A stretch of DNA of 41,448 nt from a virus. Shown here one piece after another: positions 2-36,096 of the stretch; position 1 is the first letter of the stretch, and every line of letters begins with the position of its first letter. The position numbers and the translations under genes are program-made. The notes beneath the pieces were generated by a model that did not search any database, was not told where the DNA came from, and saw nothing but the letters and a program-made list of their open reading frames with translations. The stretch is from the IMG/VR virus record IMGVR_UViG_3300023257_000052, positions 1-41,448 of that record, one strand, 5' to 3'.

Positions 2-196
2 CCAGCAATAGAATGGATTAGTGGTACTTTATCATGGTGGTATATGGGTATACGACATCGTATAGATGGACCAGCAATAGAATGGGTAGATGGTATTAAA
101 GAATGGTATATAGAAGGTAAACAATATACAGAACAAGAATTTAATGACCAAAAATTAAAGCAACAGTTGATACCACCAGAAATGTGGGAGATATGA
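2..196 (+). CDS. MORN-like repeat protein, C-terminal part (gene cut by window edge)
   Basis: Only the last 64 codons are in the window, read in frame from base 2. The visible part holds one and a half MORN_2-like units (pattern HRxDGPAIEWxDGxxxWY) followed by a spacer with TEQEFND and the tail QLIPPEMWEI. It is nearly the same protein as the next gene, so the two are tandem paralogues. MORN-type repeats in phages have no established role; protein or membrane binding is usual elsewhere. The stop (TGA, 194-196) overlaps the start of the next gene, and the last codons GTGGGAG supply its ribosome site. Confidence 0.85.
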   Translation, partial: PAIEWISGTLSWWYMGIRHRIDGPAIEWVDGIKEWYIEGKQYTEQEFNDQKLKQQLIPPEMWEI

Positions 197-435
197 AAAC
201 ATATAAAAATGATAAAGGACAGTATCATAGGACAGATGGTCCAGCAATAGAATGGGCAGATGGGACTAAAGAATGGTTTTGTATGGGTATGTTACATCGT
301 ATAGATGGACCAGCAATAGAATGGGTAGATGGTATTAAAGAATGGTATATAGAAGATAAACAATATACAGAACAAGAATTTAATGACCAAAAATTTAGGT
401 CAAGGCTGATACCACCAGAAATGTGGGTGATATAA
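193..435 (+). CDS. MORN-like repeat protein
   Basis: An 80-residue protein starting at ATG 193, inside the preceding stop codon (ATGA); a GTG nine bases upstream is in frame but sits within the ribosome site. It has the N-terminal motif MKTYKNDKGQYHRTDGPAIE, two MORN_2-like units (HRxDGPAIEW-x-DGxKEW), a TEQEFND linker and the tail RLIPPEMWVI. No catalytic residues are visible, so a binding or scaffold role is the most that can be inferred. It ends TAATG, sharing one base with the next start. Confidence 0.85.
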   Translation: MKTYKNDKGQYHRTDGPAIEWADGTKEWFCMGMLHRIDGPAIEWVDGIKEWYIEDKQYTEQEFNDQKFRSRLIPPEMWVI

Positions 436-686
436 TGTATAATAATATAGGTAAATTTAATATATCATATCATTTAATTAAGCATTATCCAGAAATTGTT
501 AAAATGATAACAAAGGATATGATAATAATATGTACTGCTAATAAAGAAGATTTTATAGAGTATATTGCAATAGGTAACATGTTTGAAGAAATTTCTGATA
601 AAACAGATATACCATATTACATGATAATAGTGCATACACAAGATAAAATAAAAAATAAGACTATAACATATGACAGAATATTTTAA
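435..686 (+). CDS. Hypothetical protein with a frameshifted copy of the shared C-terminal tail
   Basis: An 83-residue protein of unknown family, starting at ATG 435 in a TAATG overlap. It has no MORN repeats; it is a small alpha/beta-looking protein rich in Ile and Lys. Just after its TAA stop, the -1 frame from 683 reads LIIPNKMWEI and stops at 713-715. This is the same tail that ends its neighbours. The junction lies at a run of four T (681-684), so a one-base change, or possibly -1 slippage, separates the body from its tail. The function is unknown. Confidence 0.75.
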   Translation: MYNNIGKFNISYHLIKHYPEIVKMITKDMIIICTANKEDFIEYIAIGNMFEEISDKTDIPYYMIIVHTQDKIKNKTITYDRIF

Positions 687-711
687 TAATACCTAACAAA
701 ATGTGGGAGAT

Positions 712-966
712 ATGATGGGATATATGAAAGAATATAGAAATGATAAAGGTTTATTACATCGTATAGATGGACCGGCTGTAATATTCGTTGATGGATCTAA
801 AGGATGGTATAAAAATGGACATTTACATAGACTTAATGGACCGGCTATAATATATGCTTGTGGTACTAAATTTTGGTACATTAAGGGTAAAGAATTTACA
901 GAACAAGAATTTAATGATAAAATATTTGGGTCAAGGCTGATACCTAAAGAAATGTGGGATATATAA
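712..966 (+). CDS. MORN-like repeat protein
   Basis: About 84 residues with two MORN_2-like units (HRIDGPAVIFVDG and HRLNGPAIIYACG), a KEFTEQEFND linker and the tail RLIPKEMWDI. Three in-frame ATGs (712, 715, 724) are possible. 712 repeats the ATGA overlap used by the first gene pair, 715 has the best spacing to GGGAG, and 724 aligns with the start of the paralogue at 15384. The gene ends TAATG, sharing one base with the methyltransferase start. Probable structural or binding protein; no enzymatic residues seen. Confidence 0.8.
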   Translation: MMGYMKEYRNDKGLLHRIDGPAVIFVDGSKGWYKNGHLHRLNGPAIIYACGTKFWYIKGKEFTEQEFNDKIFGSRLIPKEMWDI

Positions 967-2896: not shown

Positions 2897-3076
2897 ATGT
2901 TATATTGTAATGAAAAACGTAATGAACATGGCATGCTATATTGTATAACTGGCCCTGCTGTAATATATGCTAATGGTAGAATAGAATATTGGATCAATGG
3001 TAGACTTTTATCAAAACAAGAATTTAATAAGCTAAGAATAAAATTTTTAATACCACCAGAAATGTGGGAGATATAA
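2897..3076 (+). CDS. Short MORN-like protein with shared C-terminal tail
   Basis: A 59-residue protein with an ATG right after the preceding stop. It has a single degenerate unit (GMLYCITGPAVIYANG then IEYWING), the linker SKQEFNK and the tail FLIPPEMWEI. The HRxDGPA core is eroded to CITGPA, but the spacing matches the paralogues at 193, 712 and 15384. The tail codons again give GGGAG, though the next gene uses its own GGAG at 3077-3080. Confidence 0.75.
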   Translation: MLYCNEKRNEHGMLYCITGPAVIYANGRIEYWINGRLLSKQEFNKLRIKFLIPPEMWEI

Positions 3077-14814: not shown

Positions 14815-15387
14815 ATGATTAAACTTAATATTGGTGCCGGAAAGGGGCACCCCGTAGTACCAGGATGGACTATAGTAGATATTGGTGGACCTAATACAGA
14901 TGTAAAAGTTAATATATCATGTACTGCTTTACCATTTGAAGATGATACAGTAAGTATCATCTTCACGTCACATATGCTAGAACATATATATCCAAAGGAT
15001 ATAAATTTTGTATTGTCAGAATTTTATAGAGTACTTAAACCAAAGGGTCTATTAAGGATTATAGTACCTGATATAAAGCAAGCATCAGAAGCTTATGTAA
15101 AAAATGATATTGAATTTTTTCATAAGGCTGATATGTCATATAGAAATCCTAAAGAACCTATAGGTGGATTATTTTGTAATTGGGTATATTCTATTAAAAA
15201 ACAACCAAGTATTACTAATGGACATGTTAATTGTTTTGATATGGAATATATGTCATTCTTATTAAAAAATGTTGGATTTAAAAATATTGTACAGAGTGGA
15301 TGGAAAAATAGTAGTCTAGAAGAATTAAGAACTACCGCGTTTGACAGGCATCGTATAGGAAGTCTTTTTATGGAAGCTATAAAATGA
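14815..15387 (+). CDS. SAM-dependent methyltransferase (type 11, COG4627-like)
   Basis: A 190-residue protein. The SAM-binding loop is KLNIGAGKG at residues 3-11, then VDIGG, and LPFEDDTVSIIFTSHMLEHIYP marks motifs III-IV. YRVLKPKGLLRIIVPD follows as in type-11 methyltransferases. Such enzymes are frequent in sugar and capsule clusters. ATG 14815 follows AAAGGAG. It ends in an ATGA overlap with a MORN-like gene, repeating the methyltransferase/MORN neighbourhood seen at 712-3076. Confidence 0.82.
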   Translation: MIKLNIGAGKGHPVVPGWTIVDIGGPNTDVKVNISCTALPFEDDTVSIIFTSHMLEHIYPKDINFVLSEFYRVLKPKGLLRIIVPDIKQASEAYVKNDIEFFHKADMSYRNPKEPIGGLFCNWVYSIKKQPSITNGHVNCFDMEYMSFLLKNVGFKNIVQSGWKNSSLEELRTTAFDRHRIGSLFMEAIK

Positions 15388-15695
15388 AAGAATATAGAAA
15401 TGAAAAGGGTTTATTACATCGTATAGATGGACCGGCTGTAATATATAATAATGGTGATATGTTATGGTATAAAGAAGGTGCACGACATCGTACAGATGGA
15501 CCAGCTATAGAATATATCTATGGTAAAAAAGAATGGTGGGTTATGGGTAAGTTACATCGTACAAATGGCCCAGCAGTAAAAGGATCTGATGGTTCTATGT
15601 TATGGTTTATTAATGGTGAAAAAATTACAGAACAAGAACATATAAATATAAGATTAAGGCGACAGTTAATACCTAAAGAAATGTGGGAGATATAA
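15384..15695 (+). CDS. MORN-like repeat protein (three units)
   Basis: A 103-residue protein with three MORN_2-like units: HRIDGPAVIYNNG, HRTDGPAIEYIYG, and HRTNGPAVKGSDG, each followed by a WY/WW turn. The linker ITEQEHINIR and the tail QLIPKEMWEI close it. It is the longest copy of the family in the window and begins MKEYRNEKGLLHRIDG, almost as the copy at 724. It ends TAATG, sharing a base with the next ORF. Confidence 0.88.
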   Translation: MKEYRNEKGLLHRIDGPAVIYNNGDMLWYKEGARHRTDGPAIEYIYGKKEWWVMGKLHRTNGPAVKGSDGSMLWFINGEKITEQEHINIRLRRQLIPKEMWEI

Positions 15696-16032: not shown

Positions 16033-16050
16033 AACTTAATATTACTGGGG

Positions 16051-16188
16051 TGGCGGAATTGACAAAACAGAATAGGAAAATGATTTGCTGGTTTGTCATT
16101 GGCAAGTAGGCGGCGGAAGTGGCGGAATTGACAAAACAGAATAGGAAAATGATTTGCTGGTTTGTCATTGGCAAGTAGGCGGCGGAAG
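16051..16188 (+). repeat. Two perfect 69-bp tandem repeats, GC-richer than the genome
   Basis: Units 16051-16119 and 16120-16188 are identical, followed by a third start TGGCG (16189-16193). Each unit folds into an 11-position stem, TGACAAAACAG against CTGGTTTGTCA (one mismatch), with a 17-nt loop. The unit begins TGGCGGAATTGACA, like a tRNA-Leu D arm. TGGGGT (16046-16051) could pair with ACCCCA about 185 bases later, closing the whole region. It lies in the 234-base gap 16033-16266, where no convincing gene is seen on either strand. Confidence 0.85.
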
Positions 16189-16266
16189 TGGCGACATAGA
16201 TACGGTTAATCCGAGACTTGTTATTTGCTATCCAAAACCCCATCAATCATATTTAAAGGATAAAAT

Positions 16267-24463: not shown

Positions 24464-24609
24464 ATTTTTATCCCGTAAATAAATCCAGATATACAACCCC
24501 AAAAATATAATATAGCTGGATGCATAGTACGTTTTAATCCTTCATGATAATACCATGCAAAAAGATATGATCCTAAAAAAATACACATTCCTAAAATTTC
24601 ATAATTCAT
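24460..24609 (-). CDS. Small two-pass membrane protein
   Basis: A 49-residue protein with two hydrophobic helices (residues about 4-19 and 32-46) joined by a short HEGLKRTMH loop. ATG 24609 follows AAAGGAT. Its TGA overlaps the gp46 start (ATGA), so its translation is coupled with gp46. The function is unknown. Confidence 0.65.
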   Translation of the reverse strand: MNYEILGMCIFLGSYLFAWYYHEGLKRTMHPAILYFWGCISGFIYGIKI

Positions 24610-24643
24610 AATAAATCCTTTATACTACATATATTATATAATG

Positions 24644-25015
24644 TTAATCAATCATAAATAATTCTTTAGGTATCAATGGTTTAGAATAATTTCCGACTTT
24701 ACAATATCTTGGTGTAAGACCATATTTTTCTATATATTTTTTCATTTGATTTTCTATCCTATTTTTTCTTTCATCTCTCATATTATATATCATTCGATTT
24801 GTAGCATCATAAATTGTTTCTTCACCTGTACCTGATATAGAAGCACCTGTTCTTCCTTCACATATGTAATATTGTTTATTATTATTAACATAAGAAAAAA
24901 GATCTAATTCATAATTATTTTTTACAAAATGGCCATCAACTTTTTCATATTCTTTACCATAATCTTTTTGTTTATGAGCATAATAATTATTTGATACTTT
25001 TTTATATTTATCCAT
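24644..25015 (-). CDS. Hypothetical protein with the shared LIPKELF tail
   Basis: A 123-residue basic, tyrosine-rich protein without recognised domain; CEGRTGASISGTGEETIYDATNRM in the middle could be a loop-rich core. It ends PLIPKELFMID, matching the tail of the MORN-like genes on the other strand (LIPKEMWEI). The body shares nothing with MORN repeats. ATG 25015 lies within the 3' end of the 3D-domain gene. Confidence 0.7.
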   Translation of the reverse strand: MDKYKKVSNNYYAHKQKDYGKEYEKVDGHFVKNNYELDLFSYVNNNKQYYICEGRTGASISGTGEETIYDATNRMIYNMRDERKNRIENQMKKYIEKYGLTPRYCKVGNYSKPLIPKELFMID

Positions 25016-25526
25016 GTATAAGCCTTGTTACTGTTATATTACGTTTGATACCCAATTTATTTGCTATTTTTTTAGATGCTACACAAATATCAATCTGTAG
25101 TCCCTTAACAGATTTATCCATTTTATCTTCCATAATAAATACACCATAACCCGGAATATAGACATTAGCATCACCCCAACCCATGTTAGTTAATTCAGGT
25201 GATATTGCTACTGTTTTACCGGGTACAGGCTTTCTCATAAAAGCAGTATTATCTGGATCACTATCACTGTTTATACCGCCTGAGGCAGGGTGGTAAAATG
25301 AAATTGTTACCACCTGAGTTCTATTTAATTCTCTTTCTAAAGCCCTAATTTGATTAAGTCTATAATTAATTATAAAATTTTTAGAAGCTATTGTAATCTG
25401 TTGCTGTTTTACTAAATCCAATCTATCAGCTCTATCACATAATCTCACTACACCATATACAGATGTTAAAAAAATAAACAAGATGCCTATTGATACTATA
25501 ATTACAAGCGATCTAAATAATTTCAT
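25008..25526 (-). CDS. Membrane-anchored 3D-domain protein (probable cell-wall enzyme)
   Basis: A 172-residue protein from ATG 25526 behind GAGAGG. One N-terminal transmembrane helix (residues about 5-25) is followed by a short coiled part. The C-terminal half is a 3D (three-Asp) domain, the double-psi barrel shared with RlpA/MltA-type lytic transglycosylases: VTISFYHPASGG, VAISPEL, VYIPGYGVFIMEDKMD and LQIDICV carry the aspartates. It may cut peptidoglycan at lysis or entry, anchored in the inner membrane like a signal-anchor endolysin. Confidence 0.8.
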   Translation of the reverse strand: MKLFRSLVIIVSIGILFIFLTSVYGVVRLCDRADRLDLVKQQQITIASKNFIINYRLNQIRALERELNRTQVVTISFYHPASGGINSDSDPDNTAFMRKPVPGKTVAISPELTNMGWGDANVYIPGYGVFIMEDKMDKSVKGLQIDICVASKKIANKLGIKRNITVTRLIHG

Positions 25527-25536
25527 TATAACCTCT

Positions 25537-25809
25537 CTATTTTGTACTGGCTCCAAGAATACCATATCCAATAATATCATTATATGGATTCTCATTAAAT
25601 GCATCCTTTTGATTAGCTATTCTAAATAATTTATCAATTATTCTTACAACTGTCAACATATCATTATATTGTTCTGGTTTTATACCATTAGGATACATTT
25701 CTTTAAGTACTGTACCAGAACGACCAAAAGAATCACCATAAGCTATCTGTTTTTCTATAACAAGAGAGGCTATATTATCTGCTATTTTATGATAATCATT
25801 CTCTATCAT
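25537..25809 (-). CDS. DUF1599-like (nucleotide-modification-associated) protein
   Basis: A 90-residue helical protein from ATG 25809. The phrases IEKQIAYGDSFG, LKEMYPNGI, VVRIIDKLFRIA and ENPYNDIIGYGIL match a phage family related to DUF1599, linked by comparative genomics to nucleotide modification and to nucleotide-pyrophosphatase-like folds. It may act in dNTP metabolism. It overlaps the metallopeptidase gene upstream by 14 bases. Confidence 0.7.
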   Translation of the reverse strand: MIENDYHKIADNIASLVIEKQIAYGDSFGRSGTVLKEMYPNGIKPEQYNDMLTVVRIIDKLFRIANQKDAFNENPYNDIIGYGILGASTK

Positions 25810-26263
25810 CAGCTTCTTGGCCATACAAATCTTGACATAAATTAGCAAGCCTTTGTCTCCACATAGGCTCATTTTTGTTAAGCTCAATTTCTTCATGAAA
25901 ATCTTCTATATCATGTGGAATTAATTTATATGGCGTATTACTGTCAATATCAACTAATGTATGCCTCAATTCATGACGTAAAATTTTTATTTTTTCTTCT
26001 CTTGTTATATTATCAAAAATCTTTTTATCAATAAAAATAATATAATCATGACCTTCATTTTCTGCCGACTCATCTATAGTCAAATATCTTAATAAGTCAT
26101 TTGTCTTTTGTATCCTTGCTAATGTAATCTTACCATTTGATTGCCTTTTTTTCAAATCATAAAGAATCTTAATATTAGCATTTCTAAGTTCTGGGAAATG
26201 TTCTGCTCTAACTTCTCTAAAAATATCATTAATCTCTGTTGGGACATCTTCGAATCTTAACAT
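25796..26263 (-). CDS. Phage metallopeptidase
   Basis: A 155-residue protein. The zinc motif HELRH (H97, E98, H101) sits in KIKILRHELRHTLVD, followed by IPHDIEDFHEEI, the pattern of the putative phage metallopeptidase family. Possible jobs are virion maturation or destruction of a host protein. ATG 26263 follows AAGGAG and lies inside the 3' end of the epimerase gene (35-base overlap). Confidence 0.8.
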   Translation of the reverse strand: MLRFEDVPTEINDIFREVRAEHFPELRNANIKILYDLKKRQSNGKITLARIQKTNDLLRYLTIDESAENEGHDYIIFIDKKIFDNITREEKIKILRHELRHTLVDIDSNTPYKLIPHDIEDFHEEIELNKNEPMWRQRLANLCQDLYGQEADDRE

Positions 26264-27221
26264 ATTGTTTCTCCTTAAAATAATTTACATACCATTCAAT
26301 AAAATTTTGTACACCTTCTGATATACTTATCTTGGGATTATATCCAATTTCTTTACTTGCCTTATCTATAGTAGCTAAAGATGTTAATAATTCACCTTTA
26401 GGTAAAGATACCATTTTTTTCTTTGCTTGTAAATTAGTAATATCTTCAATGATTTCAATAACATCTAAAATCTTTACTGTCTCACCTCTGCCTAAGTTAT
26501 ATATTGCATATTTTTGAGGCTTATCCATAACTCTTATTATACCATCAACAATATCACCAACATATGTATAATCTCTAAACATTTCACCATTATTGTTTAT
26601 TATTAACTCTTTATCTTCAAATATAGCCTTTGTCCAGATATATATTGACATATCTGGTCTGCCCCATGGCCCATAGCATGTAAAAAATCTAAGACCTGTA
26701 CAATTCATACCAAATGACTCACTATAAGAATATGCTAACACTTCATTGTATTTCTTTGATGCAGCATAAATATTAAGAGGATGTTCTGTATCATCTTCTT
26801 CTTTAGTAGGCGACTTACTTTTACCATAAATACTACTAGATGAAGCATATATAAAATTAGACACTTCATATTTTTTTGATGCTTCTATAATGTTAAGGAA
26901 TCCTTCACAGTTTACATGCTCAAATATATAAGGGTTTTCCATAGAATATGGTATGCCAGCATATGCTGCTAAATTACATACTATATCAGGTCTTTCTATA
27001 TTAAATATATTATCAACATGCTTTTTATCAGATATGTCATTATAATAGCATGAAAAATTATTATATTTTTGTAATTGTTCATTTCTATCTATTTTAAGAT
27101 CTACATCATAATAATCATTCTGATTGTCTATTCCAACAACAAATTTACCCTCATCTAATAATCTCTTACATAGATGATATCCTATAAAACCCGAGCTTCC
27201 AGTTACTAAATATTTTTTCAT
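26229..27221 (-). CDS. NAD-dependent sugar epimerase/dehydratase
   Basis: A 330-residue extended short-chain dehydrogenase. The NAD loop is GSSGFIG (8-14), with SSSSIYG (127-133) supplying the active-site serine and YAASK (Y152, K156) the catalytic pair. The family is nearest to UDP-glucuronate/UDP-glucose 4-epimerases. It would make a nucleotide sugar for the two glycosyltransferases in this block or feed NeuB-linked pathways. Placed between gp47 and gp46 genes. ATG 27221 follows GAGG. Confidence 0.88.
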   Translation of the reverse strand: MKKYLVTGSSGFIGYHLCKRLLDEGKFVVGIDNQNDYYDVDLKIDRNEQLQKYNNFSCYYNDISDKKHVDNIFNIERPDIVCNLAAYAGIPYSMENPYIFEHVNCEGFLNIIEASKKYEVSNFIYASSSSIYGKSKSPTKEEDDTEHPLNIYAASKKYNEVLAYSYSESFGMNCTGLRFFTCYGPWGRPDMSIYIWTKAIFEDKELIINNNGEMFRDYTYVGDIVDGIIRVMDKPQKYAIYNLGRGETVKILDVIEIIEDITNLQAKKKMVSLPKGELLTSLATIDKASKEIGYNPKISISEGVQNFIEWYVNYFKEKQYVKIRRCPNRD

Positions 27222-27233
27222 TATATATCCTCT

Positions 27234-27809
27234 TTATTCTATTTTAAACAATTCATCAGGTACTAATCTCTTCTTTTTTGGTATATCAAATCTTTTGCCA
27301 AATCTCAAATCAAAATAATATTTAAATACATAAGAACTATTATGATCATTTGTATTATAACGAGTATTATATCCATTATATCCATCTATTATATTATTTT
27401 CCATATATATTAATATTTCATCTCTTTTTATTTGAAAATCATGTATAAATTTTTCATTTTTAAGAAAATACATTGTATTATATAACTTATTAGATAATTT
27501 ATCAATATTATATGATGCTTTATGAATATGGTACAGCATACGTTCTAATAATATAATTTTATCTTCTTGTCTCCACGATCTTTTACATCTATCGCATATA
27601 TAAAATGGATTATATATTATATCATCTTGTATAACATTTGTTGTAGCGTAATCACAAAATAAGCAACATACATCATATTTTTTTATATTAGCAGTATCAT
27701 TTGATTGATACGGATATTCAGATATATTGGCATCACCTCTACCATATCTATTTAAAAAATAAAAGGGATTAACAGCATTAGTAGTATTATTAGTAGTATT
27801 ATTACTCAT
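27234..27809 (-). CDS. Zinc-finger-like hypothetical protein with the shared tail
   Basis: A 191-residue protein. The N-terminus is Asn/Thr-rich and probably disordered. CCLFCDY (near residue 48) and YICDRCKRSW (near residue 73) form a four-cysteine zinc-ribbon pattern. The C-terminal end RLVPDELFKIE is a divergent copy of the LIPxE-M/L-W/F tail. ATG 27809 overlaps the upstream stop, whose tail codons supply the GAGG ribosome site. Confidence 0.7.
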   Translation of the reverse strand: MSNNTTNNTTNAVNPFYFLNRYGRGDANISEYPYQSNDTANIKKYDVCCLFCDYATTNVIQDDIIYNPFYICDRCKRSWRQEDKIILLERMLYHIHKASYNIDKLSNKLYNTMYFLKNEKFIHDFQIKRDEILIYMENNIIDGYNGYNTRYNTNDHNSSYVFKYYFDLRFGKRFDIPKKKRLVPDELFKIE

Positions 27810-28243
27810 ATATCCTCTAATTTAAATAATTTTTCAGGTATTATTCTATCTTTTTTTTCTTTCTTTTCTTTCTTATTAATCATATCAATAATATTAAAAT
27901 CATCTAGTGTTTCTTTTGATGATAATATTTTTAATATCCTTTCCATAAATGTAGACATACCATCTTTAATTATAACATTCATACATATTTCTAAAACGCT
28001 TAAAACAGAATAATTATAGGTATATGAACTTGGATTAATATAACTTGTACCAGTACTATCAATATAAGTAATACATGACGGATTTTCTGTTATGCCATAG
28101 TCAGCAATATTAACATTTGTTAATTCAGAAAGCATGGTTTTTAAATCATCATCATTTAATTCACGATTTGGTGAATTAACAAATGTACCGTCAGGATTAT
28201 CTAAATAATAATCTTCATCTGTTAAATTTTCATTATTTTCCAT
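27806..28243 (-). CDS. Hypothetical protein with the shared tail
   Basis: A 145-residue acidic protein. The N-terminus is acidic (ENNENLTDEDYYLDNPDG), a long helix is likely in LEICMNVIIKDGMSTFMERIL, and a KKEKKEKKDR linker leads to RIIPEKLFKLEDI, another divergent tail copy. Its last codons TTAGAGGATATATGA hold the ribosome site and ATGA start of the next gene, as on the plus strand. Unknown function. Confidence 0.7.
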   Translation of the reverse strand: MENNENLTDEDYYLDNPDGTFVNSPNRELNDDDLKTMLSELTNVNIADYGITENPSCITYIDSTGTSYINPSSYTYNYSVLSVLEICMNVIIKDGMSTFMERILKILSSKETLDDFNIIDMINKKEKKEKKDRIIPEKLFKLEDI

Positions 28244-29246
28244 ACATCATTTCATCCATTAAATGATCAATTATTTTTTTAAGAGTGTTTACTTTAATAT
28301 GATCAGGAACATCCACATTTTTTATTGTATCAAATAAAATCTCTTTATTGTCTTTTACTGTCATATCAGATTCATCATCTTTTATATCAACCTTTTCAGT
28401 AACATTACTAAAATCAGCATTAAATTGTAATGGACCAAAAGACTGTATTTTTTCTATCATATTATTGTTATCTGTTTTACCATAGTCTTTAGTAAATACA
28501 AAATTAACAATATTGTCTTTAATATCAGATTCAATGATATCATCACTATATATTTTAACAAACTTTGGGTATTTAGTAAACTCTATAAATTCTGTTTCAC
28601 CATTGTCATATATATAGTACCCTCTGATGCCATTAATATCATTAAATGTTTGTTGGAATGGTGCTCCAATATACGTTATATTTTTTTTGACTGATGGTAT
28701 ATGAAAATGCCCACTATATACCATATGAAAGTCTTCAAAATCTTTAGCACTTAATCTATCATGCTCTTTAAAAATATAATTACTTGACATCGGGAATCCA
28801 TTAAGCTCAAGATGTGCCATGACTATATCAAATTTCTTATATTTTTTTATATCATCTGATTTGTAACATGACCATGGCAACATAATTATGTTGCCATTAG
28901 CATAAGCATCATCTATTATGTTAATGTTATCCCATTTGTTATAGATAGAAACACTACATGGTTTTATCCTGTCTTTATAAAATGTATCATGATTACCTAC
29001 TATTATATTAACTTGATAGTCTTTAAGGAGGGCCATTATTTCATTGGAATATTGGAGAGTTTTAACATTGATTGATTTTCTGTTGTCAAACCAATCACCA
29101 AGAAATGTTATTGTTTTTATATTGTTACGTTCACATGTATCTATTATACTATTAATAAGATCTATAACAACAGTATGCCATATATCAGATGATTGATATA
29201 GACCAAGATGTATATCACTAAACAAAATCATTTTATCATTTAACAT
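28233..29246 (-). CDS. 47: Recombination endonuclease subunit gp47 (SbcD/Mre11-like)
   Basis: A 337-residue calcineurin-type metallophosphoesterase. Motifs in order: FSDIHLG (D11, H13), FLGDWFDNR (D51), GNHD (84-87), a histidine in AHLELNG, and SGHFHIPS. The C-terminal part is acidic and helical and would contact gp46. It acts as the nuclease of the gp46/gp47 complex in recombination-dependent replication. It starts five bases after the end of the sigma gene. Confidence 0.9.
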   Translation of the reverse strand: MLNDKMILFSDIHLGLYQSSDIWHTVVIDLINSIIDTCERNNIKTITFLGDWFDNRKSINVKTLQYSNEIMALLKDYQVNIIVGNHDTFYKDRIKPCSVSIYNKWDNINIIDDAYANGNIIMLPWSCYKSDDIKKYKKFDIVMAHLELNGFPMSSNYIFKEHDRLSAKDFEDFHMVYSGHFHIPSVKKNITYIGAPFQQTFNDINGIRGYYIYDNGETEFIEFTKYPKFVKIYSDDIIESDIKDNIVNFVFTKDYGKTDNNNMIEKIQSFGPLQFNADFSNVTEKVDIKDDESDMTVKDNKEILFDTIKNVDVPDHIKVNTLKKIIDHLMDEMMYGK

Positions 29247-29251
29247 TTTTA

Positions 29252-29662
29252 TTAACCTATCAATAATTCGTAATTTATCGCTTTTTTATTATAATCTTTT
29301 TGATCTTCAAATATAATATCATTGTTCTTATAACATATGTCTTTGATTTCTTTATGTTTTGTTTGTTTTTTTATGTAAGCTTTAAAAGAATTTTTACATA
29401 TCTGAGTAACATATGCAAAAGCATTATCAGATTTTTCAGAATTGAAATTCTTTAAGTATTTGATGCAGGTCAGTACCGCTTCACTTACCATATCTTCCCG
29501 CCATGTGTATCTGGCAAAACTGCCTTTAGAAGAATATCGTTTAGCTATATTGATTAACATTAAAGCAAGGGCATTTGAAGCAATGCCCTTTTTTTTAAAA
29601 TCAATAACTTCTTTGAGGAGGTCTTTGTTGTTTACATAATATTTTGCATGTTCTTTACTCAT
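29252..29662 (-). CDS. 55: Late-transcription sigma factor, gp55-like
   Basis: A 136-residue protein. KYYVNNKDLLKEVIDFKKKG, then YTWREDMVSEAVLTCIKYLKNFN and SDNAFAYVTQICKNSFKAYI follow T4 gp55, which binds host RNA polymerase and recognises TATAAATA. T4 gp55 is about 185 residues, so this copy is short, mainly at the C-terminus. A TATAAATA box stands ahead of the gp25 gene at 36589. The gene lies between structural and recombination genes, as 55 and 47 do in T4. Confidence 0.85.
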   Translation of the reverse strand: MSKEHAKYYVNNKDLLKEVIDFKKKGIASNALALMLINIAKRYSSKGSFARYTWREDMVSEAVLTCIKYLKNFNSEKSDNAFAYVTQICKNSFKAYIKKQTKHKEIKDICYKNNDIIFEDQKDYNKKAINYELLIG

Positions 29663-29675
29663 AAAGTATTGTTAG

Positions 29676-29705
29676 ATTATACAACATACTATATAATATT
29701 GTAAA
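29676..29705 (-). promoter_or_regulatory. Possible sigma-70 promoter before the gp55-like gene
   Basis: On the minus strand TTTACA (29705-29700), 18 bases, TATAAT (29681-29676). The start codon at 29662 would leave a leader of only a few bases and no ribosome site is seen, so the call is weak, or the message would be almost leaderless. Confidence 0.35.
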
Positions 29706-29707
29706 CA

Positions 29708-30061
29708 TTATATTATCTTTTCTACACATTTTTTTATTTTAGCTAATTTATTGTTAGCTTCAAATAACATAATCTTAAATCTCTTAACATATTTTTTATT
29801 TATCTTAATATTATCTATAGTAGTACCTTCTTCAAGACAAAATTCAAATCTAAATTTACCTTTATAAATATTTTTAAAATCATCATTAAGACTGTTCAAT
29901 ATACCATATATTTTATTAGAATCTATATCATATTTTTTGCATGTCTCTTGTATTATGTCTTTATAACATGTGTTATCATTAACAAGATTGATTCGTAATA
30001 TTCTAAATTTATTAGTATTCTCATCTAGTCCTGAGTATGATAAATATTTTAAAAATCTCAT
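29708..30061 (-). CDS. Hypothetical protein with CTS-like N-terminus
   Basis: A 117-residue basic protein. It begins MRFLKYLSYSGLDEN, close to the start (MRFIKYLQEA) of the repeat protein at 34558, and carries L-D-E at residues 12-14, a T4 prohead-protease-type site. The rest is Lys/Asn-rich and alpha/beta. It lies between a tail gene and gp55. It might be a packaged internal protein; not proven. Confidence 0.6.
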   Translation of the reverse strand: MRFLKYLSYSGLDENTNKFRILRINLVNDNTCYKDIIQETCKKYDIDSNKIYGILNSLNDDFKNIYKGKFRFEFCLEEGTTIDNIKINKKYVKRFKIMLFEANNKLAKIKKCVEKII

Positions 30062-30071
30062 ATTATACCTC

Positions 30072-30686
30072 TTATCCTATCACTGTAACATGACATGTTG
30101 GAGTATCGGTCTTCCATAATCTTACTGAATTAATTGTTAATGTTTCAACTTCTATGGTATCAGTTTTATTGTCAGCATCATTGTATAACATTACCAAAGG
30201 ATAGCTATTATTAAGATTATGAGTTAATTCATAATAATTATCACCTCCAGAAACTTGCCAACTAGCAGATGCTATAGCTGATGTCAGGGTATCTGTTTTA
30301 GCAGACCATCCTTTTGCTAGTAAATTACTAACAAATTTATTTTTTAAGGTATCTGTATCAGTTTCATCTACTTCACCTGGAACAGTTAATATTTCCATAT
30401 TATCTATTTCACCATCACTTATTGTACCAGGACTTGACCATGTGATTTTGAATTTTTGACCAGCATCATATCCATTAATTTCATTAGATGCTCCTATCCA
30501 AAACTCAAAAAATCCTTCATCATTTGTTGTTGTTTGTGGTGCTGTATTTGATGCTATACCACCACTTTCAACACTAAAAACATAAGCAGCAGTAGATGTA
30601 GTAGCTAAATATATTGTTATATTAGCTGCATCAACAGGCTGTCCTTCTTCATTTAATAAATAACTCCAATAATGTGCTCTTGACAT
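30072..30686 (-). CDS. Tail/baseplate accessory protein with beta repeat
   Basis: A 204-residue protein. The N-terminus (HYWSYLLNEEGQPVDAANITIYL) resembles the upper-baseplate or fibre-attachment domains of phages, a beta sandwich with NDEGFFEFWIG. The C-terminal 60 residues repeat a pattern W-x-V...YELTHNLNNSYPLVMLYN...TINSVRLW that occurs three times or more in the 719-residue neighbour upstream. It is probably part of the tail fibre or spike assembly. ATG 30686 follows AGGAG. Confidence 0.7.
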   Translation of the reverse strand: MSRAHYWSYLLNEEGQPVDAANITIYLATTSTAAYVFSVESGGIASNTAPQTTTNDEGFFEFWIGASNEINGYDAGQKFKITWSSPGTISDGEIDNMEILTVPGEVDETDTDTLKNKFVSNLLAKGWSAKTDTLTSAIASASWQVSGGDNYYELTHNLNNSYPLVMLYNDADNKTDTIEVETLTINSVRLWKTDTPTCHVTVIG

Positions 30687-30700
30687 TATATGCTCCTTGT

Positions 30701-32860
30701 TTAATTAGATTTTCTTTCTATTCTATACCATAATTTAAGATCAATAGTTGATTTTTTAAATAGTAAGTTATTAAATGTATAGAATATTATGTCATCAGAA
30801 GTATCAAATATACCAATTTCCGTTATATCCATATCTTCTGCTGTATTTATATTAGATTCAACATAATAATAATTATCATCTGAAGTTAATGTCGCTGTAT
30901 ATGTATATGTTCCTACAGGTGATTCTAAGTCATTATTAGTTATAGCATCCCATGCATTACTACCAGATGTGCCGACTTTAGCGTAACTAATATTTTCTGT
31001 TATAGAAGACATACTAAATGCACTTTTACTAATAGCTTTTATTACAGCATGACCTGCTTCGGCTGTAAAAAATGTTAATGTTACTATATTATTTGTTGTT
31101 ATAGTTACAGTAGCTGGATACATTAATTCATTACTAGAATTATAACACTGTACTTGAACAGCATAAGCATCTAAATCATGCTCAACAGTCCATAAAGTAC
31201 TTGCAGATGATTGAGTATGTGTGTATTCACCAGAAGCAACAATACCATATCCTGTAGTATCTTCTATAAATGTTACAGTCATATTATTAGCATCATCAGA
31301 TGTTATATTTAATGGAAAGAAATGACTATCTGTTAAATCTTCAATTTGTATTAATGGAAAATTATCTGCTAATGAATGTGTTATAGACCATGCTGAAGCA
31401 CCACTAGATTGAGTATGTGTATAATCTGGTAAAGTTATTACTGCAAGACCAGATGTAGCATATCCAAATGTAACTTTTATTGAATTCATTGTTAAATATT
31501 CAATATTAGATGGTATAATTTGTTCTAAATCTAAGCTAAAAAATTGAACTACAACATTTTTACTATCAAGATTATGTATAACATCCCATGATATACTAGC
31601 ACCTTCTCGTCTATATAATACTTTATCATCCAATATTGTTATTGGTTTACAACATTTAGTATCAACTGTAGCTCCAGTATCATAAAGAGCTATAAAAGAC
31701 CCTGTAAAATCTGATATTGGTGATAAAAGTAATGAATAATGAGCATATTTACATACAGGTCTTATTTCTTCCCATGCAGCTACAAGACGATCTGATAAAT
31801 CTTCATTAAAAATATAGTCATTACCATAAGATTCATTATTTAAATCTATTTCAGTTCTATAATGTGGTGATATTACTTTACTTGCAATATCAGGATATGT
31901 TCCAAATGATTCATAATATTCAGCACCAGCTCCGGCACTTAATGTTGCTGATCCATAATCAGGATAAGAAGTATATAAATGATCTTCAAAATTATCATTT
32001 ATATTTTCTGTTATTGACACATCATGCCATCTTTCATATACATTAAGATAATTAGATGTAAAGGGTATAACAGATCTAAAAACAATATATAATGATGAAT
32101 ATGTTCCTTTTCTTTTAAGTAAATCTGGTAATGCAGCAGCATATGATCTTCTATCTAAAATATCCAAATCACTTAAATAATTCATATCATAAATATCATA
32201 AATATATTCAAGATATTTTTCAGGAACTTCATCTGGATCAACCATAGACCATGTATTTTTTGACAAATTATAACATTTACTATATATCTTATCAAAAAAT
32301 AAGCTAAATAATTGTTTAAGATTAGTTGTTCTATTACCTATAGGAAGAGCTTTTAAAGCATTATTATTAAAATTATTACATACTATATTAAATTTACCAC
32401 TTCCATCGCTTAAAGGATATAATTTACCAAAATATAAAAATATCTTATTAATATTAACATAATCTTCATATTCAGATGTATTATTAATAAATTCACGAAT
32501 TTGATGCTCTTTTTTTATAAAATAAACATCATATCCAGCATATAATGCTAATTCATCTACAGTTAATATTGATGGTCTATAATTAGTAGTTTCAAGATGA
32601 AATTGATAAATGTTATCTGTTGGTGTACCACTTATAGGTATTCCTCTAATTTTATAATAACCATATTTATTAGTAGCTGCAGGTATATTATCATCTTGTT
32701 TATCTTTAATCCATAAATCAAGACCAAAACCATACTTTGCTGTTATTCCAGTTTTAGGACCTGTAAGATGGCCTGTTGTTGGGTAATCATATTCATATGG
32801 TTTAATAACATCTATAAAATCTTCCATTATAAAATATGGTATATCAATAAATTTACTCAT
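30701..32860 (-). CDS. Baseplate wedge/tail protein (gpI/gp7-like) with adhesin-type beta repeats
   Basis: A 719-residue protein, start at ATG 32860 sharing a base with the upstream stop. The N-terminal part (about 1-400) has the tail-protein-I-like segment ALPDLLKRKGTYSSLYIVFR and YLEYIYDIYDMNYLSD that fits a wedge protein next to gp6. The C-terminal half (from about 425) has three or four beta units of about 55-60 residues with W-x-I-x-H-x-L...PxxI...NxVxVTF...GxAxV, as in phage receptor-binding or fibre-attachment domains. It is likely the link between wedge and fibres. Confidence 0.7.
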   Translation of the reverse strand: MSKFIDIPYFIMEDFIDVIKPYEYDYPTTGHLTGPKTGITAKYGFGLDLWIKDKQDDNIPAATNKYGYYKIRGIPISGTPTDNIYQFHLETTNYRPSILTVDELALYAGYDVYFIKKEHQIREFINNTSEYEDYVNINKIFLYFGKLYPLSDGSGKFNIVCNNFNNNALKALPIGNRTTNLKQLFSLFFDKIYSKCYNLSKNTWSMVDPDEVPEKYLEYIYDIYDMNYLSDLDILDRRSYAAALPDLLKRKGTYSSLYIVFRSVIPFTSNYLNVYERWHDVSITENINDNFEDHLYTSYPDYGSATLSAGAGAEYYESFGTYPDIASKVISPHYRTEIDLNNESYGNDYIFNEDLSDRLVAAWEEIRPVCKYAHYSLLLSPISDFTGSFIALYDTGATVDTKCCKPITILDDKVLYRREGASISWDVIHNLDSKNVVVQFFSLDLEQIIPSNIEYLTMNSIKVTFGYATSGLAVITLPDYTHTQSSGASAWSITHSLADNFPLIQIEDLTDSHFFPLNITSDDANNMTVTFIEDTTGYGIVASGEYTHTQSSASTLWTVEHDLDAYAVQVQCYNSSNELMYPATVTITTNNIVTLTFFTAEAGHAVIKAISKSAFSMSSITENISYAKVGTSGSNAWDAITNNDLESPVGTYTYTATLTSDDNYYYVESNINTAEDMDITEIGIFDTSDDIIFYTFNNLLFKKSTIDLKLWYRIERKSN

Positions 32861-34548
32861 TATGTTTCCTCTGTAAATACACAATCATCTATAGATATTG
32901 CAGGATATTGATTACTACCTAGTGTTATTTTTCTTAACTTATTTTCACCTGTATATGTTGATGATGCTACAGTAAATTGAGGATCATTACCTATAGTGTT
33001 AGGTTCATATACTGTAGCATTAAGAACATCAATATTTCTTATTATAAGAGTTTGTATTCCCTTTGTTTGATCAAAATCATCTGTTGTTGATTCAATAGTA
33101 GTATCTGTTATGAATTCTATTATATCTATAAATGATATAGTTTCATTAAAGCTTCTATTTGTAGTACTAAAAAAGTATGTTAATTTATTTTTAACATCAT
33201 TAGATACATTAGCAAATGTATACGTTCTTTTAATTTTAATACCCATATCAATTTTAAAATAAATCAATTCAGGTAATTCATAAGCTTCATAAGCACTTAG
33301 CATTTTTCTTGGTTCAAGATATACTGAAAGAAGATCTTGATATGTTTCAGACCATTCATAAGGTTCTTCTATACCAGCACTTGCTGCTGATGTTTCTATA
33401 GTACTTGTTCCCCATTCATTAGGTATAACAGATACATAAACTTTATTATAATCAGTTACACTCCCAGATGGAGCTACTTCTTGCTCACCCCATACGTTAG
33501 CAACATCTACATCAGATCTTGATTCTAAATGAGATATATAATCTTTTGCTGTAACATTTCTATATTGTGAATGCATAACACCTGTTGAAGCATTTACAAT
33601 CTCTGTTATTGTTTCTGGATCAGCCGAACTTACTGTAGCATCTGTATTAGTTACTGTTAAATAATCATTAGAAGACCATGCTGAAGTAGTTTGATTATAT
33701 AAAAAATTGGTTTCCGGTAAAGTAATATTATCCGCACCTACAGTACCGGCAGCGCCTAAAGATTTTAATACTGTTACTGTAATATCTTCAGTAGAAGCAG
33801 GATAATTTCTTAATGATGAAAATTCTATTAAATATTTTTCATATTTATCATATTTGAACATAAAAACATCATCTTCTGTATAAAGACCTGATAAATTATC
33901 ATAAAAATCAGATATTCGGTCCCATATATCATCACCTATCTGAACCTGTATTGAAGGTGATTGATCATCTAAATCATTATCATAATCAAAATTTTCATTA
34001 GGTAAAAACAATTTATAATTAATAATATCATCACCAGTATATGTATATTCAGTAACATCACCTTGTCTAGCATATAATGAAATGGTATATGGAAATGATG
34101 CTGATAAAGGAATTGTTTCTGTATATTCTGCGGTAGTAGAAAATTTTATAACATTACCTGCTGTATCAGTAGCATCTGGACATGTTATTGTTTTCCAAGG
34201 TGATACTAAGATAGTATCACCTATAGACACACCAGCAGAAGCGCCTATAGATACTGTAACAGTAGTTGATGCTGATCTATAACCACTAGGATTATATCCT
34301 CTTAAATGTGATAACATATGTACTGTTTCGTATGTATCAGCAGTATCAATATAAATATTTTTTGCTAATTTATTTAAAAGAAATGTATTAATATCAGCAA
34401 GATATGCCATAAGTTCTATAAGAATTGCTATATTAGAACCTTCATAATTATAATCAGCAAATACAGGGTCAACTTGAAGTTGCTCTTTTATTTTTTGTAT
34501 ATATGTGTTGTAATCTATATCTAAATAACCTGGGACTAATGTAGTCAT
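32860..34548 (-). CDS. 6: Baseplate wedge protein, gp6/J-like
   Basis: A 562-residue baseplate J-like protein. The start (PGYLDIDYNTYIQKIKEQLQ) and YEGSNIAILIELMAYLADINTFLLNKLAKNIYIDTADTYETVHMLSHLRGY form the conserved helical head of T4 gp6 relatives, followed by beta domains and a helical C-terminal part (NRSFNETISFIDIIEFI). It forms the iris of the baseplate wedge. Downstream of gp25, as is standard, except that the repeat gene lies between. It begins ten bases before the end of that gene's neighbour region; ATG 34548 follows AAGGAG. Confidence 0.85.
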   Translation of the reverse strand: MTTLVPGYLDIDYNTYIQKIKEQLQVDPVFADYNYEGSNIAILIELMAYLADINTFLLNKLAKNIYIDTADTYETVHMLSHLRGYNPSGYRSASTTVTVSIGASAGVSIGDTILVSPWKTITCPDATDTAGNVIKFSTTAEYTETIPLSASFPYTISLYARQGDVTEYTYTGDDIINYKLFLPNENFDYDNDLDDQSPSIQVQIGDDIWDRISDFYDNLSGLYTEDDVFMFKYDKYEKYLIEFSSLRNYPASTEDITVTVLKSLGAAGTVGADNITLPETNFLYNQTTSAWSSNDYLTVTNTDATVSSADPETITEIVNASTGVMHSQYRNVTAKDYISHLESRSDVDVANVWGEQEVAPSGSVTDYNKVYVSVIPNEWGTSTIETSAASAGIEEPYEWSETYQDLLSVYLEPRKMLSAYEAYELPELIYFKIDMGIKIKRTYTFANVSNDVKNKLTYFFSTTNRSFNETISFIDIIEFITDTTIESTTDDFDQTKGIQTLIIRNIDVLNATVYEPNTIGNDPQFTVASSTYTGENKLRKITLGSNQYPAISIDDCVFTEET

Positions 34549-34557
34549 TTGTACTCC

Positions 34558-36096
34558 TTATTTCTTTTTTTCTTCTTCTGGATGATTTTCATAATATTGT
34601 TTTCTTATATAATGCCAATCATCTTTCATAGCATCCTTATCATTCGGATGATTATAATAATATAATTCTCTTATGCGAGTATTATCATCTTTCTTAGCAT
34701 TTTTATCTTCAGGGTTATTATGATAATATTGTTTTCTTACAATATTACCAGGATCTTTCATAGCATCTTTATCATTCGGATGATTTTCATAATATTCCAT
34801 TCTTATACTTTGATATTCATCTGTTTTAGCATCTTTATCATTCGGATGATTGTCATAATAAAATCTTCTTATATGAAGACTTTTATCTTTTTTAGCATCC
34901 TTATCATCTTGATTTTTTAAATAATATGCCTTTCTTATATTTACATTGTCATTTATTTTAGCATTAGGATCATTAGGATTATGTTTATAATATGTTATTC
35001 TTATTTCACTATCAACGTCTTTTATTGCATCTTTATCATTCGGATGATGGTCATAATATATCCTTCTTACATCATTATCACTATCTTTTTTAGCATCTTT
35101 ATCTTCAGGATGTTTTTTATAATATTCCATTCTTATACTTTGATATTCATCTGTTTTAGCATCTTTATCTTCAGGATGGTTATCATAATATCTTTTTTTA
35201 ATACCATAATCATTATCTGTTTTAGCATCAGGGTCATTTGGATGATTTTGATAATATTGTTTTCTTATAATATCAATAAATTCTTTTTTAGCATCTTTAT
35301 CATCTGGATTATTTTGATAATATAATCCCCTTATTTTAAAGTCAGAGCTATCTTTATAACCTAAACCTATAACATTTGTCCCTGTATCAACATATAATTC
35401 AGGATTTATTTCATATGTACCTTTAAACTTCTGAAAAGTCTTAAGCCATGCTATAATTCTTTTTCTAAATCCAGAGACATCAGATCCATAAACTTTTTTC
35501 TCTGGATAAAGTACCATATCCTTTTCATTATCTATATTTATAAATTGTTTTATAAGAATCCTTCCTATAGGCTTATTAATATTTTTATCATTTGTATTAA
35601 TAATATACGCTACTAAAGTACCGTATTTTATATCTTTATGTATATATTTTTGAAACATACCACCTTGTAAGTCCATACAACTTGTCCATCCACGGTCAGT
35701 ACTCATGCCAGCTAAATCATATGGATGTCTGGATATAACTATAAGCAAATCAGTTTTCTTACCACTAGTTCTTCTCTTGTCATTAATAAATACTTTTAAT
35801 AGATCTTGTTCTTTATTTTTAGACAACACTTTACCAAGTCTTAATATTTTTTTACCCGACTGTACAATACCTTTCTTATAATTAACAATCTTTAACTTAT
35901 TAGATTTAATAAAATTATCTATAGCCTTAGGAGGTTTAATGTCTTCTTTATTAGCATCAAAATCAAGGTATATCCTGTCTTCACCTTTAAAGACTTTATT
36001 AAGATATGTCTTATATTTTTTAGACAGTATAGCAGGTTTGATTTCTTTGACTTGCTTTAAAGTTAATGCTTCTTGTAAGTATTTGATAAATCTCAT
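34558..36096 (-). CDS. Repeat protein with capsid-targeting-type N-terminus
   Basis: A 512-residue protein between gp25 and gp6 genes. The start MRFIKYLQEALT resembles the T4 capsid-targeting sequence (MKTYQEFIAEA of internal protein III), with L-Q-E before A10 as a prohead-protease-type site. Residues about 120-245 contain RHPYDLAGMSTDRGWTSCMD, TLVAYIINTNDKNINKPIGRI and a YGSD phrase, a domain not assigned to a function. From about residue 257 there are twelve 22-residue units of the form IRxxYYxNHPNDKDAKxDxxxx, like a helical solenoid. It may be packed in the head and injected. Cleavage and location are inferred. Confidence 0.7.
   Translation of the reverse strand: MRFIKYLQEALTLKQVKEIKPAILSKKYKTYLNKVFKGEDRIYLDFDANKEDIKPPKAIDNFIKSNKLKIVNYKKGIVQSGKKILRLGKVLSKNKEQDLLKVFINDKRRTSGKKTDLLIVISRHPYDLAGMSTDRGWTSCMDLQGGMFQKYIHKDIKYGTLVAYIINTNDKNINKPIGRILIKQFINIDNEKDMVLYPEKKVYGSDVSGFRKRIIAWLKTFQKFKGTYEINPELYVDTGTNVIGLGYKDSSDFKIRGLYYQNNPDDKDAKKEFIDIIRKQYYQNHPNDPDAKTDNDYGIKKRYYDNHPEDKDAKTDEYQSIRMEYYKKHPEDKDAKKDSDNDVRRIYYDHHPNDKDAIKDVDSEIRITYYKHNPNDPNAKINDNVNIRKAYYLKNQDDKDAKKDKSLHIRRFYYDNHPNDKDAKTDEYQSIRMEYYENHPNDKDAMKDPGNIVRKQYYHNNPEDKNAKKDDNTRIRELYYYNHPNDKDAMKDDWHYIRKQYYENHPEEEKKK
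34561..35337 (-). repeat. Twelve 66-bp coding repeats
   Basis: The 3' two thirds of the gene at 34558 consists of about twelve units of 66 bp (22 codons), centred on HPNDKDAK. Units differ at several codons, and some are near duplicates (two units carry EYQSIRMEYY), suggesting growth by duplication. The spacing is exact and coding, so this is a protein repeat and not a CRISPR array. Confidence 0.85.

Follow-up and report, generated by a model that had tools for sequence, protein, structure and literature searches.

Why should proteins with different bodies, encoded on both strands of one viral DNA, end in the same short peptide? The question is raised by the window, as we call the whole analysed stretch, a virus contig of 41,448 bases (IMG/VR record IMGVR_UViG_3300023257_000052) which encodes UvsX, gp46, gp47, a gp55-like late sigma factor and a gp6-type baseplate protein among its T4-type genes, and in which several small proteins carry a C-terminal tail of the type LIPxE followed by M or L and then W or F. 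The reading preferred here, to which we give a probability of about 0.6, regards the tail as a docking tag at the C-terminus for one common partner, a short linear motif behind a folded body. The tag is real, belongs to a group of T4-like phages and is apparently new to the literature, as a literature search retrieved no description of such a tail, in agreement with the preliminary description of this DNA, which knew of none.

Within the window, genes of which were called with a simple script of our own rather than a trained gene finder, the core pattern [LIVMF]P.[EDKNRQS].[FW].[IVLM], located at most three residues from the stop, is found at the C-terminus of eight of the 72 called genes and at none of 12,182 internal positions; the eight ends conform to hydrophobic-P-x-(E/K)-(M/L)-(W/F)-x-(I/L). 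When the last 15 residues of the window genes were shuffled 5,000 times, a mean of 0.04 C-terminal matches with a maximum of one was obtained, so that the enrichment at C-ends proposed earlier is borne out, as is the presence of all eight tails that had been named; the search pattern of the preliminary description itself matches seven times at C-ends and twice elsewhere. The five MORN-like proteins with weak similarity to DUF6745 and phrog_14557 (Pfam and PHROGs) form one paralogous family, which leaves four independent bodies in the window, not eight. The bodies of the three minus-strand proteins had been taken to differ from this family, and indeed neither matched it nor one another by blastp (E<=0.01); no significant Pfam or PHROGs match was obtained for them either. 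Neither of the two outcomes that the preliminary description had named as refuting it was thus observed. A ninth copy, described as frameshifted, turned out to be an orphan fragment. It begins at the stop of the open reading frame 435-686, and the DNA at 675-717 is 91% identical over 44 nt to the 3' end of an intact MORN-like gene on a related contig (G012), which identifies the orphan as the relic of a replaced gene (Table 1).

Table 1. Tail-carrying genes of the window, the orphan tail and one N-terminally tagged neighbour of the baseplate genes.
Position	Strand	Feature	Tail	Tail position
2..196	+	MORN-like gene, 5' end cut by contig	LIPPEMWEI	167-193
193..435	+	MORN-like gene	LIPPEMWVI	406-432
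686..715	+	Orphan tail plus stop; relic of MORN-like gene intact in G011/G012	IIPNKMWEI	686-712
712..966	+	MORN-like gene	LIPKEMWDI	937-963
2897..3076	+	MORN-like gene	LIPPEMWEI	3047-3073
15384..15695	+	MORN-like gene	LIPKEMWEI	15666-15692
24644..25015	-	123-residue protein, family unknown	LIPKELFMID	24676-24647
27234..27809	-	191-residue protein with two Cys pairs	LVPDELFKIE	27266-27237
27806..28243	-	145-residue protein directly downstream of gp47/SbcD gene	IIPEKLFKLEDI	27844-27809
34558-36096	-	512-residue protein, site of N-terminal tag; many degenerate YYxNHPxDxDAK-type repeats, adjoins baseplate genes		

The tail is not confined to this contig. A 58-kb contig (G002) is ~98-99.8% identical to window positions 5765-41448, another (G005) has 6.8 kb in common with window-family sequence at 99.6% and extends leftward, three contigs (G003/G006/G007) represent a second, related phage, and G011 and G012 are further tail carriers; together the related contigs add a P-loop-like protein of 118 residues, proteins of 84 and 48 residues and more MORN-like paralogues to the set of bodies. 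The 84-residue protein, whose gene adjoins a dUTPase-like gene, ends in RLIPQDLFVI and thus bridges the MW and LF types of tail. Scans of IMG/VR at the DNA level with back-translated tail patterns retrieved further T4-like lineages, represented by G013 (155,948 bp, ~30 tail proteins), G017 (204,431 bp, 15) and G016 (98,256 bp, four to five), which have T4-type genes in common with the window family. In G013 a tandem array of ~20 small proteins (L048 4577-14337, equal to G013 24474-34237) is nearly all C-tailed, and most of its proteins are Cys-rich with invariant Cys/His positions, which suggests that they could bind metal.

All tail phages in this analysis are metagenomic contigs, and searches starting from the tailed bodies found no isolated phage that bears the tail. 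The 145-residue body had no relative among isolated phages, the Cys-rich and L12-like bodies no match in the isolate search and an SH3-like body two weak matches only, while the MORN-like relatives read in Atu_ph07 and P12053L are without the tail. As even the best isolate counterparts of the G013 polymerase reach no more than 28-30% identity, the group is uncultured as far as the collection shows. Bacterial genomes gave two pattern matches, neither of them a called gene with the tail at its end. Open reading frames of 27-29 residues ending in LIPPEMWEI on G004/G008/G009/G010, one set of related contigs with a guanine plus cytosine content of 0.46-0.49, were judged unrelated, and lone pattern matches in L036, L037, L056, L058 and L061 were taken as chance. 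In L059 one protein of 440 residues ends in NIPEEFFKI.

Across the four lineages the strict core occurs at the C-ends of 17/264, 23/341, 15/337 and 2/201 proteins, where internal rates predict 0.03-0.07, and shuffled or column-permuted C-ends never gave more than three matches. A count of residue triples in the last 12 residues, which presupposes no motif, places at the top P..MW (13 against 0.09), P...F.I (15 against 0.34), LF.I (5 against 0.08) and P...F.M (8 against 0.06), whereas the six isolated T4-like phages used as controls have neither a C-terminal match nor a comparable triple in their last 12 residues.

In total, 66 distinct tails are distributed over about 39 body clusters (blastp, E<=0.01), 35 of which have a single member, and the bodies include a NADAR enzyme (PF08719, 2.3e-21), a ribosomal L7/L12-like protein (PF00542, 1.7e-9), MORN-like repeats, Cys-rich and SH3-like proteins. 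The best argument for the tail as a module is its presence or absence on NADAR proteins: that of G013 ends in ...QVRDEIRQEGIPKIDKELFKID, while the homologues of G017 (...QLREIFQKGGL) and G016 (...KIREYKK) end where the G013 tail starts. In both large paralogue families the tail is also better conserved than what precedes it, with an identity of 0.74 in the tail versus 0.50 in the body of MORN-like proteins and 0.53 versus 0.28 in the Cys-rich family. The earlier statement that differing bodies have a common tail, placed at their very C-terminus, stands.

Conservation of this kind could in principle reside in the DNA, with the peptide incidental, if the segment supplied the following gene with its ribosome-binding site and start overlap, or served as a recombination junction where one body replaces another. 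In the window family the tail DNA, GTGGGAGATAT(AA)TG, includes the Shine-Dalgarno-like sequence GGAG and continues into the following start; the orphan at 686-715 gives the impression that a body was exchanged while its tail remained in place; and codons agree at the same residues more often than codon usage predicts (0.70 versus 0.52, 0.58 versus 0.46, 0.64 versus 0.49). The LF-type tails of the window, however, lack GGAG, the codons used for P, E, L, F and I differ considerably, and a start within 5 nt follows 36/66 tail genes as compared with 454/1240 other genes. As the conservation of I-P and x-E is not accounted for by a ribosome-binding site either, a DNA-only reason applies at most to the MW type, and as an account of the tail it is very improbable, although recombination may help the tail to spread.

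At the level of the peptide, the order of residues is a hydrophobic one, P (61 tails), D (four) or S (one), any residue, mostly E, D or K, a hydrophobic residue, F or W (L twice), any residue, and I, L, V or M, after which follows the stop or a short extension of one to three mostly acidic residues. The putative tag motif would thus be hydrophobic-(P, rarely D/S)-x-(E/D/K)-hydrophobic-(F/W)-x-(I/M/L). Since P, D and S are all residues that start helices, a short C-terminal helix is plausible, and the tail may form a short helix or turn initiated at this position. The consensus is lineage-specific, with W and I, F and I, or F and M preferred, as would be expected if the tails followed one receptor per phage. 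An AlphaFold2 model of the 15384-15695 protein shows a confident repeat body and, outside this confident fold, a less confident C-terminal tail, the predicted local distance difference test (pLDDT) score averaging 72 for residues 91-100 and 48 for the last three; a structure search with the model gave weak matches only, the top ones largely MORN proteins; the NADAR model, with a mean pLDDT of 57, was too poor to use.

The chemistry of the tail bears on one of the three roles, sorting, docking or degradation, that the preliminary description had considered. A degradation signal read by a host or phage protease, which would keep early proteins short-lived, could be expected to be short, C-terminal and placed on small, probably early proteins, as is the case here. 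The small non-polar ends of ssrA-like signals (LAA) are nevertheless not seen, as I, M, L, V or acidic residues stand at the end of the tails, and the conserved residues P and F are internal and often followed by D/E. This role appears rather improbable.

Docking peptides of comparable composition are well known: the C-terminal tip of SSB and the C-terminal peptide of FtsZ are, like the tail, acidic-hydrophobic ends with I/L-P and F which dock partners. SSB terminates in P-F, whereas P and F are separated by a single residue in FtsZ and by three in the tail; moreover, the SSB and FtsZ peptides reside on one hub protein, whereas the tail is carried by many clients. A rival reading takes the sliding clamp, phage gp45-like or host beta, as the partner, so that the tail would recruit its small carriers to DNA under replication. 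The x-(E/D)-(L/M)-F of the tail is reminiscent of clamp motifs of bacteria (QADMF, for example), and three tail genes of the window sit among the gp46/gp47 genes. The place of the bacterial Q in motifs of the QxxLF type is however held by P, D or S in 66/66 tails, and 6/29 G013 tails have E immediately ahead of F. In T4, interchangeable hydrophobic and acidic clamp-binding motifs are located at the extreme C-termini of three proteins, gp43, gp55 and gp33 (PMC2988020), unrelated phage proteins whose ends are read by one partner. These ligands, which are restricted to three core proteins, end in LDFLFG, LDFLYEAND and LDFLL (LDFL[FLY]), unlike the tails, and the counterparts in the tail phages are without the tail: the polymerases end in NLNLFF (window family) and LSLFFK (G013), the only two C-ends identified by sequence, and the sigma factors in NYELLIG, YQKIKDEM and DYTLMR. 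The tail being missing from sigma factors and readable polymerase C-ends argues against the clamp, which we regard as an unlikely partner; Pfam models of gp45 had no match in the tail phages.

The replication and transcription genes show peculiarities of their own. The family-B DNA polymerase of the window family is encoded in two reading frames (L042 6315-8081 and 8327-9199, on G011), and the polymerase frame of G017 (122896-124752) stops at the same place as this split; a G017 protein of 274 residues ending in CFDIFF may be the C-terminal part of its polymerase. A protein of ~90-110 residues with a sigma-region-4-like helix-turn-helix is encoded by G013 (G013|145) and G017 (G017|133), with matches in the window family and G016 and none in the six controls; judged by eye, it might form the second part of a sigma factor that has been split.

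Sorting into the capsid can be weighed against a second tag. About 50 other proteins of the tail phages begin with M-(R/K)-(L/F)-x-x-(Y/F)-(L/I)-x-(E/D/S): 18 in the window family, a figure in which one or two matches could be fortuitous (MKVPYIDSD) and which includes one gene twice, from a pair of near-identical contigs, 18 in G013, 14 in G017 and one in G016. These N-tagged proteins (L015, L018, L050, L052, L054, L067, L068 and other sites) are larger and of unrelated families, including a zeta-toxin-like kinase, a C39-type peptidase, NUDIX, a HAD phosphatase and a poly(A)-polymerase/CCA enzyme, and none carries the C-terminal tail in addition. The N-terminal tag resembles the capsid targeting sequence (CTS) of T4, which reads MKTYQEFIAEA in that genome. 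Genes in runs behind the T4-type late promoter TATAAATA make up 25/51 of the N-tagged, 5/66 of the C-tailed and 211/1030 of the other genes, with p values of 4e-7 for C-tail versus N-tag and 0.01 for C-tail versus others which are overstated, as the genes of one run are not independent. This distribution suggests that the N-tagged set might be expressed late and perhaps packed, the C-tailed set mostly not.

In another rival reading the tail would be a capsid cargo tag for loading of the prohead, the C-terminal counterpart of the CTS or of the cargo-loading peptides of encapsulins. Encapsulin cargo peptides are, like the tail, short, C-terminal and common to different proteins; they differ from it in sequence. 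T4 loads its internal proteins through short tags on varied small proteins (PMC9026906), and the tailed set is varied and accessory in the manner of injected proteins. The CTS of IPI-IPIII, equally a tag of about ten residues common to unrelated small phage proteins, is however N-terminal and prohead-directing, whereas the tail is situated at the opposite end, on a non-overlapping set of genes rarely found behind late promoters. With a separate CTS-like tag present in the same phages, packing of the tailed proteins has little probability.

The window and G002 seem to encode different numbers of repeats in the product of 34558-36096. A 75-base DNA repeat is also present in both contigs as two identical copies that overlap, with an offset of 69 bases (window 16050-16193).

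Of the roles envisaged in the preliminary description, docking fits best, with capsid sorting less likely on account of the N-terminal tag and the promoters. The tail is confined to the C-ends of unrelated bodies, as a docking motif should be, and inside the infected cell it would lead varied small proteins of the phage to a shared partner; presumably a single partner reads it. The tailed proteins would act early in infection, and as their partner the clamp or the capsid seems less likely than a host or phage complex already there before the late genes are expressed. Several points weigh against docking on a common partner. A search for the receptor by gene content yielded many genes common to the tail phages and not present in the controls, none of which is clearly a peptide reader. 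The regular expression for the core was adjusted after tails had been seen, an adjustment of which the residue-triple test is free, and G016, with two strict and about five relaxed C-terminal matches, is by itself not significant on the strict count. Remote homology missed by blastp could merge some of the body clusters, and only 1/5 structure models was confident. Finally, the excess codon agreement means that some of the tails may be alike because 3' ends were copied recently, and such copying, or recombination, probably had a share in spreading the tail.

Together with the CTS-like N-terminal tag, the tail suggests that some T4-like phages sort their proteins by labels at both ends. A more far-reaching and as yet tentative proposal, which we hold to be possible but rather doubtful, is a sorting by two addresses in a large group of T4-like phages, whereby the N-terminal tag would direct proteins to be packed into the head and the C-terminal tag would assemble early effectors, dozens of them and interchangeable, on a single hub. 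If so, the hub would be a phage assembly or a host machine, and new bodies would join it by gaining a tail of eight residues. Most small phage proteins are without an assigned role, and the tag would mark up to ~30 of them per phage as clients of one partner, which would turn many separate unknowns into one question, namely what reads the tail, and would offer a way to find, by sequence, the set of proteins with which such phages take over the host.

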